From positions 1 through 34,940 of the forward strand of contig NZ_NFKA01000026.1 of the NCBI RefSeq assembly GCF_002160145.1: a stretch of 34,940 bases of DNA, read 5' to 3'. The notes below the pieces were generated by a model. The model was not told where the DNA came from. It was given only the letters and a program-made list of their open reading frames with translations, and ran no database searches. This document shows, in pieces, positions 30,135-34,868 of this stretch. Position 1 is the stretch's first letter. Each line of letters starts with the position of its first letter. Source of the stretch: Gemmiger sp. An194 (GTDB taxonomy: Bacteria > Bacillota > Clostridia > Oscillospirales > Ruminococcaceae). The position numbers were made by a program, and so were the translations under genes.

Positions 30135-31535
30135 TTAAGAAATTTTAGACACTTTGGGGCCCTGAGCGGTGTCTTCCACCTGCCAGCCCATCTCGGTGAT
30201 CTGGGCGCGCAGAGCGTCGGCGGTGGCCCAGTCCTTAGCCTTCTTGGCGGCGGCGCGGCGCTCCACCAGCTCCATCACCTCGGCAGGCACCTCGTTGGTC
30301 TTGCGGTTGTACAGCAGGCCCAGCACGCCGGTCAGCTCGTCGAACACCTCAGCGGCATTGGTCAGCGCAGCCTTGGAGGCCTCCTTGCCCAGGGTGTTGA
30401 TCTCCTTCACCAGCTCAAAGATGGCGGCCAGCGCATCCGGGGTGTTCAGATCGTCGTCCATGGCGGTGTTGAACTTGGCCTTGGCGGCGGCAGCCTTCTC
30501 CACCAGTACCTCGCTGCCGGTCTCGGCGGCGTTCTTGATGAGGAAATCCAGATTCTCGCGGCAGGTATACAGCCGCTCCAGGCTGGACTTGCAGGACTGG
30601 ATCAGCTCCACGGTGTAGTTCAGCGGCATGCGGTAGCCCGCGGTGAGCAGGAAGTAACGGATGGGCTCATAGCCGTAAGCGTCGGCAATCTCACGCACAG
30701 TGAAGAAATTGTTGGCGCTCTTGCTCATCTTGTGGTTGTCGATGTTCAAAAAGCCGTTGTGCATCCAGTAGCGGCTGAAGGTGCAGCCGTTGGCGCACTC
30801 GGACTGGGCGATCTCGTTCTCGTGGTGGGGGAAGATCAGGTCCTGACCACCGCAGTGCAGGTCGATGGTCTCGCCCAGATGCTTGCGGGCCATGGCGCTG
30901 CACTCAATGTGCCAGCCGGGCCGGCCGGGGCCGTAGGGGCTTTCCCAGGCGGGCTCGCCGGGCTTGGCGGCCTTCCAGACCGCGAAATCCGCCGGGTCCT
31001 CCTTCAGGTCGTCGTCCATCTGGCTGCGCAGCTCACGGTTGCCGCTCTCCAGGTCCTCCAGGTTCAGGTGGCTCAGCTTGCCGTACTCCTTGAACTTTCT
31101 GGCCCGGAAATACACGTCGCCGTTCTTGGCCACATAGCCGTAGCCCTTTTCGATGATGTCGGCCACGATGCCCAGGATCTCGTCGATGTGCTCGGTGGCG
31201 CGGGGACGCACGCTGGGTGCCAGCACGTTCAGGCCCTCGCTGTCCTTGATATACTCGGCCTCGTAGCGGCGGGCGACCTCCTGCATGGGCACGCCTTCCT
31301 CCTGGCCCTTCTTAATCAGCTTGTCGTCAATGTCGGTGATGTTGGAAACGTAGATCACCTTATTGCCCTGGTACTCCAGATACCGGCGCAGGGTGTCGAA
31401 CACCACCATGGGCCGGGCGTTGCCGATGTGGATGAAATTGTACACGGTGGGGCCGCACACATAGATGCGGTACTCGCCGGGCTTCTGCGGGATGAACTCC
31501 TCTTTTTTGCGGGTGAGGGTGTTAAAAATCTGCAT
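30135..31535 (-). CDS. cysS: Cysteinyl-tRNA synthetase
   Basis: A 466-residue class I synthetase of the usual length. It has the zinc ligand Cys27 in YVCGPTVYN, the HIGH-like HIGN (36-39), the GWHIECSAM and HCGGQDLIFPHHENE segments and KMSKS (269-273). It charges tRNA-Cys with cysteine in the cytoplasm. The ATG at 31535 follows AAGGAGCG. No T-box is seen in the short leader. It has its own promoter and terminator. Confidence 0.98.
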   Translation of the reverse strand: MQIFNTLTRKKEEFIPQKPGEYRIYVCGPTVYNFIHIGNARPMVVFDTLRRYLEYQGNKVIYVSNITDIDDKLIKKGQEEGVPMQEVARRYEAEYIKDSEGLNVLAPSVRPRATEHIDEILGIVADIIEKGYGYVAKNGDVYFRARKFKEYGKLSHLNLEDLESGNRELRSQMDDDLKEDPADFAVWKAAKPGEPAWESPYGPGRPGWHIECSAMARKHLGETIDLHCGGQDLIFPHHENEIAQSECANGCTFSRYWMHNGFLNIDNHKMSKSANNFFTVREIADAYGYEPIRYFLLTAGYRMPLNYTVELIQSCKSSLERLYTCRENLDFLIKNAAETGSEVLVEKAAAAKAKFNTAMDDDLNTPDALAAIFELVKEINTLGKEASKAALTNAAEVFDELTGVLGLLYNRKTNEVPAEVMELVERRAAAKKAKDWATADALRAQITEMGWQVEDTAQGPKVSKIS

Positions 31536-31712: not shown

Positions 31713-32648
31713 TTACAGCCACTTCTTCCAGCGGGCCAAAAAGCCTGCGCCCAGAGTAGCCAGCACGGCAATGACCACCACGATCACAAAGCCGAAGGGA
31801 TTCTCGGCGAAGGGCACCGGCACGTTCATGCCCCACAGGCTGGACACGATGGTGGGCACCGTGAGGATGATGGTCACGGCAGCCAGCAGCTTCATCACGA
31901 TGTTCAGGTTGTTGGAGATCACGGAGGCGAAGGCATCCATGGTGCCGGACAGAATGTCCCGGTAGATGCTGCTCATCTCCATGGCCTGCTTGTTCTCGAT
32001 GATTACGTCCTCCAGCAGATCGGTATCCTCGGGGAAGTCCCGCACAAAATCCATGCGCAGCAGCTTCTCCAGAACGATCTCGTTGCCCTTCAGGGAGGTG
32101 GAGAAGTACACCAGGCTCTTCTCCAGGCCCAGCATCTGGATGAGCTCTTTGTTCTTCATGCTCTTGTGCAGCTCGTTCTCCACGCGGGTGCTGGCCTTGT
32201 CCACCTGGCGCAGGTAGAACAGGAACAGGCTGGCGTTGCGATAGAGCATCTGCAGGGCCATGCGCTTGCGCTTCTTGGTGCTGCAGGCCTTGACCAGACC
32301 CTCCATGAAGGCCCGGGGCAGCGCGGTCTCCTTCAGAGAGACAGTGATGATGTTATCCTCGGTGAGCACGATGCCGAAGGGAATGGTGGAATACACAAAG
32401 CTGTGGCCCTCGGTCTGCACGATGGGGGTGTCCACGATGATGAGGATGTGGCCGTTGTCCTCCACTTCAATACGGCTGCGTTCCTCTTCGTCCAGCGCGG
32501 CCCGAACCAGGTCCGGGTCCACATGCAGCTGGGCGCAGACCCGGCCGATCTCCTTCTCGTTGGGGTCGCACAGGTTGATCCAGGAGCCGGGCAGGATCTG
32601 GTCCTGCTCCAGCATACGGCCGCTGTCGCTCAGATAAATATTCAACAT
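31713..32648 (-). CDS. corA: CorA-type Mg2+ transporter
   Basis: A 311-residue member of the CorA family. A long cytosolic domain (1-245) is followed by two membrane helices (about 250-271 and 286-305). The selectivity motif GMN (273-275) sits in SSLWGMNVP between them, and the C-terminus is basic (ARWKKWL), which closes the pore at high Mg2+ in the known pentamers. It takes up Mg2+, possibly Co2+ or Ni2+. The ATG at 32648 follows GCAGGTG, which can be hidden by an upstream complement in the leader. It is monocistronic behind an unusually long leader with a small ORF. Confidence 0.95.
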   Translation of the reverse strand: MLNIYLSDSGRMLEQDQILPGSWINLCDPNEKEIGRVCAQLHVDPDLVRAALDEEERSRIEVEDNGHILIIVDTPIVQTEGHSFVYSTIPFGIVLTEDNIITVSLKETALPRAFMEGLVKACSTKKRKRMALQMLYRNASLFLFYLRQVDKASTRVENELHKSMKNKELIQMLGLEKSLVYFSTSLKGNEIVLEKLLRMDFVRDFPEDTDLLEDVIIENKQAMEMSSIYRDILSGTMDAFASVISNNLNIVMKLLAAVTIILTVPTIVSSLWGMNVPVPFAENPFGFVIVVVIAVLATLGAGFLARWKKWL

Positions 32649-32657
32649 AAAAAAACA

Positions 32658-32737
32658 CCTGCTTTCTCAAACTTACCGGTTCTTCTCCCGGCTGTGTTTG
32701 CGGCGCACGGCATTACAGCCGCCCCCCGAAAAGCAGG
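32658..32737 (-). promoter_or_regulatory. Potential helix sequestering the corA ribosome binding site
   Basis: In the minus-strand RNA, CCUGCUUU (complement of 32730-32737) is perfectly complementary to AAAGCAGG (complement of 32658-32665), which contains the corA ribosome binding site. The helix would enclose 64 nt with its own GC-rich pairings. It begins 15 nt after the stop of the leader ORF, close enough for a ribosome there to interfere. Whether it forms is unproven. Confidence 0.5.
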
Positions 32738-32741
32738 CTCC

Positions 32742-32759
32742 GCGCTCATAATTCAGCGC
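32742..32759 (-). other. Hairpin holding the leader ORF stop codon
   Basis: On the minus strand GCGCT and AGCGC pair around GAATTATG, so the stop codon of the leader ORF spans the hairpin's 5' arm and loop. It adjoins the sequestering strand for the corA ribosome binding site. Confidence 0.45.
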
Positions 32760-32833
32760 AGAATGCAGGGTAAGGCAGCAAAGCCGGTTCCGCTGATAAA
32801 ACGATCCACACATCTACTGGGGTCGCCGTCCAT
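32753..32833 (-). CDS. Leader peptide upstream of corA, 26 codons
   Basis: An ATG at 32833 on the minus strand follows AAGGAG (complement of 32842-32847) with the ideal spacing of eight bases and opens a 26-codon frame that begins MDGDPSRCVDRF and ends PCILR. It lies inside the corA leader, between its promoter and the corA start. The N-terminus carries two Asp residues and a Pro among the first five residues. In enterobacteria, short acidic or proline-rich N-termini (MgtL) weaken ribosomes at low Mg2+, and the corL ORF controls corA; similarity here is of position and composition only. It could be a chance ORF, but the ribosome binding site is among the best in the window. Confidence 0.6.
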   Translation of the reverse strand: MDGDPSRCVDRFISGTGFAALPCILR

Positions 32834-32866
32834 GCTGTCATCTCCTTGCATTGAATTTTTTGCAGT

Positions 32867-32915
32867 GGGCCTTTCGGCCCTCAATTAGTGTATGCCCGCC
32901 GGACAGGTTTGTCAA
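32867..32915 (-). promoter_or_regulatory. corA promoter and 5' hairpin
   Basis: On the minus strand a consensus TTGACA (32910-32915) lies 17 bp before TACACT (32887-32892). Transcription would begin near 32880, right at a GGGCC-GAAA-GGCCC hairpin (32867-32880) that may protect the 5' end. The untranslated leader before corA is therefore about 230 nt. Confidence 0.72.
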
Positions 32916-33041: not shown

Positions 33042-33087
33042 AAAAAAGAAAGCCGGGGAAACCAGCTGCTTCGCTGGCCTCCCCGGC
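33042..33087 (-). terminator. Terminator of the 3D-domain protein gene
   Basis: On the minus strand GCCGGGGAGGCCAGC pairs with GCTGGTTTCCCCGGC around a 6-nt loop and is followed by TTTCTTTTTT. It lies 24 bases past the stop codon. Confidence 0.92.
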
Positions 33088-33111: not shown

Positions 33112-34155
33112 TCAGCCCATCACATACACGTTCACTTCCTGCACACCGTTCATCAGCGCTTCGGAGAAGCTGTCGTAGAACAGGTCCACCAGGCAGCTGC
33201 CGTTCAGCAGCGAAGCGCCTGTGTCGGTGGCGATGGCATAGCCGTAAACCAGCTTGCCGTCGGTGCTGGTGATATAGAGCTTGGTGCCGTACGGGATGAG
33301 GGCGGGGTTCACGGCAACGGTGCCGCAATACAGGCCCAATCCGGAAGCGCCCCGGCCCCGGCTGGCACTGTAGCCGGTGGCCCGGCCGGTGTACACCGCC
33401 GTGTAGCCGGTGGGCACGCCGTCCACCACCTCAGGACCTTCCAGCGGCGAAACCGGCGCCCCTGCCTGATAGGCCTTGATGATGGTGTTCTGGGGTGCCA
33501 CGGTCTGCACCACGCTGATCACCTGGCTGGATTCCACCACGCCGTCCACCACGCGCTCGCGGTGGGTGATCTGGTTGGTGCCCTCGTGCCCCTGCTGCAC
33601 CAGCTGGGTCCGGTTGCGGTTCCTGTAGAACAAGCTGGTGTACACATACTCGGTCTCGTAGGGGATGGATTCCTCCACCACGGTGTCCCGGTATTCCACC
33701 CGGTGTACCTGGATGCTCAGGCCGTCGGAAATGGCGGTGTGCAGGCTGGGCTCGGTGTAATCGTGCTCACCCAGCTCCACGCCGCAGGCGGCCAGTGCGT
33801 CGTTCACGGTGCCGTTGACCAGGCGCAGCTGGTGGGTCTGGCCGTCCGCGGTGACGGTGAGGTCCAGCGCCCGCTGGATGCTCAGACTGGCCTGATTGCC
33901 CTTGTAGGCGGTGTAGTGCACATCGTCGCCCTCCTCAGCCACGATGCCGCTCAGCTGCATGAGCTGCTGCGGGTCGTCCAGGTGGGTCATAACCACCTCG
34001 CTCGCGCCCTCGGAATCGGTGATGCGCACCAGATGCAGCGCCTGATGCAGGCCGATCAGGGTGAGCGCCAGGCAGCCCACGGTAATCAGGCAGGCCCACA
34101 CCTTGACCGGCACCGCCAGAACCAGGCGGCGCAATTTGTTGATGATCGTAATCAT
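33112..34155 (-). CDS. DUF348/G5/3D-domain cell-wall protein (YabE-like)
   Basis: A 347-residue exported protein. A basic N-terminus and a membrane helix (about 13-32) act as uncleaved anchor or signal. DUF348-type repeats follow (about 70-150: LDLTVTADGQTHQLRLVNGT and GLSIQVHRVEYRD), then a G5 domain (about 150-215), and a C-terminal 3D domain (about 262-347) with RATGYSASRG, VNPALIPYGTKLYI and the Asp-bearing ATDTGA and VDLFYDS motifs. The 3D domain resembles lytic transglycosylase MltA and is found in YabE and resuscitation-promoting-type proteins, so peptidoglycan cleavage is likely. ATG at 34155 follows TTAGGAGATTGC; an 80-codon longer frame lacks a ribosome binding site and would cross the promoter. 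Confidence 0.88.
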   Translation of the reverse strand: MITIINKLRRLVLAVPVKVWACLITVGCLALTLIGLHQALHLVRITDSEGASEVVMTHLDDPQQLMQLSGIVAEEGDDVHYTAYKGNQASLSIQRALDLTVTADGQTHQLRLVNGTVNDALAACGVELGEHDYTEPSLHTAISDGLSIQVHRVEYRDTVVEESIPYETEYVYTSLFYRNRNRTQLVQQGHEGTNQITHRERVVDGVVESSQVISVVQTVAPQNTIIKAYQAGAPVSPLEGPEVVDGVPTGYTAVYTGRATGYSASRGRGASGLGLYCGTVAVNPALIPYGTKLYITSTDGKLVYGYAIATDTGASLLNGSCLVDLFYDSFSEALMNGVQEVNVYVMG

Positions 34156-34299
34156 GCAATCTCCTAACGTTCCATGCTGGCGGGCAATGGGGGCCAAAAC
34201 GGCCCGCCGGCGGCCTGGAACATGGGGCCAGACCGCGCCCTGCTTTCGATGGCCCGAAGCCTTTGCCGGCAAATGCGGGCTGTTCCGGGCACTTGTGGC

Positions 34300-34329
34300 A
34301 TTGTAGCAAAAGCGGACCGGAGCCGTCAA
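34300..34329 (-). promoter_or_regulatory. Promoter of the 3D-domain protein gene
   Basis: On the minus strand TTGACG (34324-34329) and TGCTACAAT (-10 at 34300-34305) are separated by 18 bp with an extended -10. The leader is about 140 nt. Confidence 0.55.
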
Positions 34330-34868
34330 ACGGGAAAGCTCCGCCGTTTTTTGCCGCATGCTTTCAAATTTCGCCGAAATATATTTACCGTTCACTGTTG
34401 CTTTTAAAATTCTCGCTTTTTCGGCTTTTTTCTTAAGATTTCTTAAGATTCAAACCGATTGTATCAATATCGCCTCCTTTTGTACAACATAAATTCCCGC
34501 TGCCGCTCACAGAATCCTCTGGCAGGATTTTGTGCAGCTTCCACAATTTTTATTCCGATTATGGATTTTTCCTCGCTCATGCAAGCCGCTGCAATTTGCT
34601 AAAACGCCTCCGCTTTTCTTCCGGCCCCGGTGCTTTTCCGCCTGTTTTTCGGGCATGACCCGGCCCCGTTTTCCGGGTCTGATTCTGATTGTATCCCCTG
34701 CCGCCGGGCATATTTTGCCGAAGGGTGCCCTGTGCTGTTTTTCCCTTTTTTCCACGGCTGCTGCGCCCGGTTATACTCCGCTTTTTTCAGGCAGTGCGCC
34801 TTCACCGACAGGTGCAAATCATGGGGCGATATCCATATATAATGTAATATATAAATATCCTATATCAT
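34330..34868. other. Intergenic region, no gene recognised
   Basis: About 540 bases with lower GC and no frame that has both a ribosome binding site and protein-like composition. The notable features are the perfect tandem pair TCTTAAGATT at 34431-34440 and 34441-34450, each containing the palindrome CTTAAG, and an AT-rich stretch of TATA-like words at 34828-34868. Confidence 0.6.
34431..34450. promoter_or_regulatory. Tandem TCTTAAGATT pair, possible regulator site
   Basis: Two exact 10-bp copies lie side by side, one helical turn apart, the spacing favoured by OmpR/PhoB-type response regulators. No regulated gene is identified. Confidence 0.35.

Follow-up and report, generated by a model that had tools for sequence, protein, structure and literature searches.

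The window analysed here is one entire contig of 34,940 nt from Gemmiger sp. An194 (NZ_NFKA01000026.1), whose genome comprises 3.07 Mb. A gene for a CorA-type Mg2+ channel is encoded on its minus strand between cysS and a G5/3D-domain gene. An earlier note, made from the letters alone, had proposed a Mg2+-sensing leader peptide upstream of corA. The features of the locus are as follows, in the direction of transcription.

33112-34395: G5/3D-domain gene, on one flank of corA
32910-32915, minus strand: -35 hexamer TTGACA; TTGACAAA in 10 of 10 aligned sequences (window and nine relatives)
32887-32892, minus strand: -10 hexamer TACACT; TACACT or TAAACT across the ten-sequence alignment
32842-32847, minus strand: Shine-Dalgarno sequence (SD) of the leader ORF, AAGGAG
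32753-32833, minus strand: leader ORF, 26 codons and TGA, MDGDPSRCVDRFISGTGFAALPCILR; reading frame intact in all seven genus members
32819-32833, minus strand: head M-D-G-D-P, codons 1-5, proposed ribosome-destabilising element
32810-32818, minus strand: codons 6-8, AGT AGA TGT, start of the codon patch (AGT, CGA and TTA are enriched at codons 6-12 of the leaders)
32738-32763, minus strand: hairpin spanning the leader stop codon
32729-32738, minus strand: anti-SD arm GCCTGCTTTT, with the 8-bp complement inside it at 32730-32737
32657-32666, minus strand: corA SD arm GAAAGCAGGT, pairing with 32729-32738
32649-32655, minus strand: seven T directly before the corA start, right behind the SD-sequestering helix
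31713-32648, minus strand: corA, CorA-type Mg2+ channel of 311 amino acids (PF01544, E 5e-50)
30135-31535: cysS, on the other flank of corA

The leader covers about 230 nt between the promoter and the corA ATG at 32648, and the anatomy described in the earlier note was recovered in all its parts. The gene downstream encodes a Mg2+ transporter by its CorA domain. The promoter, TTGACA-17-TACACT, agrees with the consensus at 10 of 12 positions, and a shuffled 2-kb region averages 0.4 such sites. The 26-codon ORF begins with ATG at 32833, ends with TGA at 32755-32753 and has a good ribosome binding site (AAGGAG at 32847-32842); its peptide opens MDGDPSRC, and the span matching codons 6-12 of the leaders is 32798-32818. 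A hairpin over the ORF stop was found at 32763-32738, and the 8-bp complement to the corA ribosome binding site is formed by CCTGCTTT (32737-32730) and AAAGCAGG (32665-32658). This helix is predicted to extend to 10 pairs, 8 of them Watson-Crick. Because seven T stand just behind it, the SD-sequestering helix could also be an intrinsic terminator before the corA start.

The leader stretch of 281 nt folds with -107.6 kcal/mol (z -3.0 against shuffles). An Rfam scan of the whole window at gathering thresholds gave a tRNA at 629-701 as its sole match. A strong terminator-like hairpin with 15 pairs and a T run lies at 33052-33087 (minus strand), behind the G5/3D-domain gene and upstream of the corA promoter.

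Conservation in the genus and its near relatives

When the corA upstream region of the window was aligned with those of nine relatives, conservation was most marked in two places, at the promoter and at the SD and opening codons of the leader ORF. All seven genomes of the genus retain the promoter, the SD and the ORF head, which reads MDGDPSRC in four genomes, MDGDPSSR in two and MDADPSSQ in one. Loss of the start codon or the frame in close relatives, named in the earlier note as an outcome that would speak against its reading, was found in none of the seven. The Pro5 codon varies within the genus (CCC, CCT and CCG); only this genus comparison of synonymous change at codons 4-5 is free of circularity, since Asp or Glu at residue 4 and Pro at residue 5 were selected for in the whole set. 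The genus peptides comprise 22 or 26 residues with differing tails, and the leader stop ends 80-104 nt before corA in every case.

The anti-SD arm moves between sequences, and the helix over the corA SD was therefore counted per sequence and against shuffles instead of by covariation in a fixed alignment. At least 6 Watson-Crick pairs are predicted in 16 of the 17 listed sequences (window and near relatives), with the 5' arm anywhere between -90 and -21, and some arms differ in sequence yet pair. The helix claimed in the earlier note is thus retained at this length by nearly all of these sequences; in L006 it has only 5 pairs. In L010 a different sequence is paired, at the 5' side of its SD.

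The leader family before corA in Bacillota

The survey was widened to 225 corA upstream regions from Bacillota, obtained from 35 of 41 matches in relatives, 103 of 108 in a family sample and 87 of 91 in a class sample; the phylum sample of corA regions comprised the best-matching part only, 42 lower matches being left out. These regions are mutually related and unevenly sampled. A leader was called where a small ORF preceded by an SD of at least 4 nt has [DE]-P at residues 4-5. By this rule, an SD-preceded M-x-x-[DE]-P ORF occurs in 100 of the 225 regions, spread over 17 family-level groups: in 7 of 7 regions of the genus, in 71 of 107 of the window's family and in 29 of 118 from outside that family, these 29 belonging to 16 further family groups. 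The motif is absent under the rule from 125 of the 225 regions, many of which show nothing. The SD spans at least 5 nt in 93 of the 100 leaders, at least 4 nt being the selection rule. Heads include MDGDP, MSPDP, MNPDP, MGTDP, MDADP, MDCDP, MKPDP and others.

Asp or Glu at residue 4 and Pro at residue 5 hold in the 93 distinct heads by selection, and the position of Asp-Pro was used as an unselected test. When Asp-Pro was scored over residues 2-21 of 213 ORFs with an SD of at least 5 nt and a length of at least 8 residues, it started at residue 4 in 93 regions, at residue 3 in 3 and at residues 6 and 14 in one each. Residue-shuffled controls had Asp-Pro at residue 4 in 0.94 ORFs on average and in 4 at most; the reverse-complemented control had no such ORF, yet out of only 47 compared with 213. 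The genus-wide conservation and this position count against shuffles argue that the leader is more than a chance ORF. Over the 100 leaders, codon 4 is GAC, GAT or GAG, each of the four Pro codons occurs at codon 5, and the head is kept while the tails vary in sequence and length. Residue 2 is acidic in only 36 of the 93 distinct heads, so many heads hold a single acidic residue.

The head was also found in 26 of 80 named corA loci, a species-level collection overlapping in part with the 225 regions. Carriers include Candidatus Fournierella and Pygmaiobacter species, a Christensenellaceae MAG, Ruminiclostridium cellobioparum, an Angelakisella and Acetobacterium tundrae. Leader-like ORFs with the look-alike heads MDSGP, MDAGP, MDVGP, MDDPEAD and MDTDGS stand before corA in motif-less regions and named loci, and perhaps belong to a broader class with a less strict Asp-Pro requirement. 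Three Clostridia-like corA genes (L308, L319 and L358) lie on contigs labelled Methanosarcina or Methanosarcinaceae, which may reflect contamination or transfer.

The head precedes three kinds of Mg2+ transporter gene

Whole genomes were scanned with patterns for the leader. A strict pattern, which misses many leaders including that of the window, gave 25 matches in 197 genomes of the family, all of them by coordinates just upstream of corA; the reversed pattern gave 1. An MDxDPG-type pattern gave 22 matches in 249 genomes of the phylum, compared with 6 in the reversed control. Six of the 22 lie before corA, in G489, in G694 and in four members of family group f136; the f136 leaders begin approximately 0.4-0.5 kb ahead of the aligned part of corA. 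Eight lie before MgtE at seven places (G669, G597 and G646 of family group f148, and the same four f136 genomes), and the seven genes downstream carry MgtE_N, CBS and MgtE domains. The others are one match before an NRMT operon, three in one kind of gene, which is presumably that of elongation factor P as its translated end reads, two in another gene, one at a contig end (L260) and L270. The four f136 genomes have the leader twice, before corA and before mgtE (L271, L274, L280, L281; L275, L277, L278, L279). Two further f136 genomes, G674 and G602, have MDADPGG heads before MgtE. A class-level pattern gave 16 matches in 246 genomes, 10 before corA, 1 before MgtE and 5 chance-like (L400, L401, L406, L408 and L409), with 3 in the reversed control. 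The MgtE match (L405, class Clostridia) reads MDSDPLPG and begins 89 nt before the opening of the MgtE frame.

Leaders before MgtE are a minority: 162 genomes had a match, and of the 30 loci inspected among them 4 were found by the rule and 3 are credible. L371, considered as an MgtE leader, was rejected because its sequence resembles the end of an adjacent MgtE copy. A search of the window's genome with PF01769 found no MgtE. A loose pattern gave 9 matches in that genome and 17 in the reversed control, and hence no sign of a second leader.

In G603, the head MDTDPDGR stands before a PRC-MgtE_N-CBS gene, which is followed by an NRAMP gene. The best solved relative of this transporter is 7qia (E 1e-111), compared with 4e-27 for the best MntH, and according to passages of PMC8806188 PDB 7qia is EleNRMT, a characterised Mg2+ transporter. 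The two closest orthologues of the operon (L411 and L412; G603 itself is L265, L392 and L410) keep MDTDPDGR with differing tails. Among NRMT loci, the head was found in 3 of 30, all of one genus, and MDTDPDGR is absent from the 1500 nt upstream of the other 27. Two further NRMT matches to the rule, MRNEP and MVNEP, look spurious, and in the NRMT-bearing group the strict pattern matched in 1 of 45 genomes. The NRAMP gene of several genomes of family group f94 (L419-L422, L424-L426, L431) is listed with one in-frame stop, mostly TAG, inside the matched stretch, which could represent read-through, an alternative code or a sequencing error.

Judged by sequence, the head thus stands before three unrelated Mg2+ uptake systems, CorA, MgtE and NRMT. 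Being common to all three, it is tied to magnesium more strongly than in the earlier note.

Codon usage behind the head

In 94 distinct leaders, codons 6-12 depart from the usage of corA codons 2-50. Ser is encoded by AGT in 62 of 86 cases (28 of 247 in corA), Arg by CGA in 41 of 74 (9 of 180) and Leu by TTA in 30 of 49 (34 of 363). The bias is bound to the reading frame: within codons 6-12, AGT occurs 62 times in frame compared with 3 and 2 times out of frame, CGA 41 times compared with 7 and 4, and TTA 30 times compared with 11 and 16. It is highest at codons 7-9, has faded by codon 13 and is slight in the late leader ORF (AGT 17 of 66, CGA 2 of 43), and corA codons 2-12 show no comparable dip. 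GGG and TAT are also enriched behind the head. Neither the order of AGT and CGA nor their position is fixed, which points to the codons rather than to a fixed RNA motif.

In genomes of high or middle GC content, corA seldom uses AGT, CGA and TTA; in AT-rich genomes this overall rarity is mostly gone. AGT is still enriched in the AT-rich genomes (13 of 16, compared with 19% in corA), as is GGG (6 of 18, compared with 5%). A milder use of infrequent codons persists along the leader ORF in GC-rich genomes. A simple rare-codon reading is incomplete because rarity is mostly missing from the AT-rich genomes and continues along the ORF in the GC-rich ones. Asp4 favours GAC in all three GC groups. In our reading, slow decoding would hold the ribosome with Asp-Pro near the peptidyl-transferase centre, and it would explain the codon enrichment only partly.

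Predicted RNA structure and switching

Folding was compared over 72 leaders whose stop ends at least 25 nt upstream of corA. The best predicted helix on the corA SD has 7.0 Watson-Crick pairs on average compared with 5.07 in shuffled sequences, and at least 6 pairs in 81% compared with 30%. Masking the ORF through its stop lowers the predicted SD access from 0.335 to 0.229; in the shuffles the value goes from 0.379 to 0.411. Free minus masked is thus +0.106, compared with -0.032 for the shuffles (sd 0.023, 12 shuffled sets; z 5.9). Freeing the ORF opens the SD by more than 0.1 in 24 of the 72 leaders and closes it in 4. With the mask ending 12 nt from the first stop base, z is 3.1, and 23 leaders open and 16 close by more than 0.1. 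The same 12-nt mask applied to 95 leaders gives a mean difference of -0.022 (shuffles -0.106), with 19 opening and 22 closing by more than 0.2.

The switch in access to the corA start that the earlier note had proposed is accordingly significant, as a prediction, for the 72 modelled leaders taken together, but is not predicted for the leader that had prompted it. For the window's own leader, folding predicts no switch, with an SD access of 0.20 when the ORF is free and 0.18 when it is covered, and both states share one predicted main helix. Events during transcription are only poorly captured by equilibrium folding.

The ORF tails of the three NRMT leaders have in common the stretch GGRGGGAATT, read in two different frames, which could pair with the 5' arm of a predicted terminator hairpin. 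The antiterminator is the minimum-energy fold in two of the three, and in the third (L410) the minimum is the terminator. The T run of the L411 terminator hairpin is interrupted. Frequent intrinsic terminators before corA were considered and rejected: a crude rule, beyond which the long-range helix and seven T of the window lie, finds them in only 11 of 95 leaders.

Discussion

Leaders of Mg2+ transporter genes with short ORFs are described in enterobacteria. According to passages of PMC11282234, the EPDP at residues 2-5 of E. coli MgtL causes ribosome drop-off at low Mg2+ and so turns mgtA on, and no expression of an mgtA fusion was detectable after Glu2 and Asp4 had been changed. The leaders studied here share with MgtL, as those passages portray it, a short SD-preceded ORF in the leader of a Mg2+ transporter gene and the Asp4-Pro5 of EPDP. 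By inference, full translation would likewise mean off and drop-off on. The head in the window holds D2, D4 and P5, acidic and proline residues within residues 2-5. The earlier note had likened these N-terminal residues to those of MgtL, and the likeness was borne out at residues 4-5, which are the conserved Asp-Pro, with the same head before MgtE and NRMT. Unlike MgtL, the present leaders belong to another phylum, precede CorA, MgtE and NRMT and have a patch of biased codons behind the head. Their predicted output structure is an SD-sequestering helix in the window and an intrinsic terminator hairpin in the NRMT leaders.

Salmonella mgtQ, as passages of PMC8092293 present it, is a uORF with destabilising Asp2 and Glu5 that controls access to the mgtB SD via alternative stem-loops. 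The burial of the transporter gene's SD in a helix is common to both, being predicted for the window and for the mean of the 72 leaders. In the same passages mgtQ differs in having 8 codons, in lying inside an operon and in its acids at residues 2 and 5; the window-type leader lies 5' of the gene, has Asp4-Pro5 and recurs in many families. Translation of corL is inversely related to corA expression and follows Mg2+ in Salmonella and E. coli (passages of PMC11552253). It is likewise a leader ORF of corA, but the passages concerned describe fewer acidic and proline residues, an involvement of Rho and no shared head. By anatomy, the leader may work like MgtL and mgtQ, the likeness being one of short head and layout. 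Among the open-access literature matches listed, a scope that does not extend to bioRxiv, there is no report of such leaders in Clostridia.

The M-box (ykoK) riboswitch, which we take to be RF00380, controls Mg2+ transporters in Bacillota. It is an RNA aptamer, and it has no match in the window at Rfam gathering thresholds. The M-box is also named in the abstract of PMC12810186.

We consider it probable that a cis-acting leader peptide senses Mg2+ via the ribosome and thereby controls the transporter gene. The leader ORF looks translated. When Mg2+ is plentiful, the ribosome would pass the Asp-Pro head and occupy the tail of the ORF, so that the SD-sequestering helix, or the intrinsic terminator of the NRMT operon, would form and the transporter would be off. 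At low Mg2+, ribosomes with a nascent chain of 5-10 residues would dissociate at the head, aided by slow decoding at codons 6-10; the tail, now free, would capture the anti-SD arm (in the NRMT operon, the 5' terminator arm), and expression of the transporter gene would follow. The peptide itself would have no function after synthesis. The sign of the leader effect on corA output at low Mg2+ is one that we infer from predicted folds and from the enterobacterial systems.

Some readings of the ORF as a protein were set aside. A functional small protein is unlikely, given that the peptide tail changes from genus to genus, and an N-terminal extension of CorA was rejected, as 96 of the 100 ORFs stop short of corA and the remaining four terminate within it in another frame.

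The biased codons behind the head would also suit a stalling site, at which the ribosome halts without dropping off and so reports help from EF-P or an ABCF protein such as YfmR, or the supply of prolyl-tRNA, rather than Mg2+. Asp-Pro repeat reporters do stall in Bacillus subtilis without EF-P, and extra YfmR relieves the stall, as passages of PMC11381351 describe. One Asp-Pro pair would probably act less strongly than those repeats, however, and what follows the head is a Mg2+ transporter gene, from one of three unrelated families, rather than a gene for proline or translation; this reading is unlikely. Positive translational coupling, in which ribosomes that finish the leader open the SD helix or reinitiate and the leader sets corA output or responds in the opposite direction, would fit the 21 of 100 leaders whose stop ends 11-19 nt before the corA start, and the 16 of 72 in which SD access rises by over 0.1 once the mask reaches 12 nt from the stop. 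It agrees poorly with the gap of 80-104 nt in all seven genus genomes and with the burial of the SD, on average over the 72 leaders, when the ORF is covered through its stop. It accounts neither for the fixed Asp-Pro head nor for the restriction to corA in the family scan, and we regard it as quite improbable. That the RNA itself is a Mg2+ riboswitch, with the ORF incidental or auxiliary, draws on a leader fold stabler than shuffles (z -3.0). No Rfam family, M-box included, matches the leader at the gathering threshold, and the conserved part is the head of a reading frame with its SD, the downstream structure and spacing varying widely. Such a riboswitch is very unlikely. The candidate Mg2+-sensing leader peptide of the earlier note is supported by the comparison of sequences.

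We also lean, if only slightly, towards a wider reading. The leaders would form a phylum-wide class of Mg2+ sensors in Bacillota, in which M-x-x-D-P and a patch of slow codons make ribosome survival over the first ten codons dependent on Mg2+. One module would serve three unrelated transporter systems, with SD sequestration as output in most and intrinsic termination in others, and the patch would be an unrecognised second half of the sensor.

The Asp4-Pro5 core is common to the CorA, MgtE and NRMT leaders and that of E. coli MgtA, which makes ribosome destabilisation at low Mg2+ directly testable, and about 100 natural variants are at hand for comparison. If the proposal is true, Mg2+ sensing by ribosome stability, known from enterobacteria, would be a general device in many Clostridia, gut species included, where it would come with a distinct head sequence, a contribution at the level of codons and at least two kinds of output structure.
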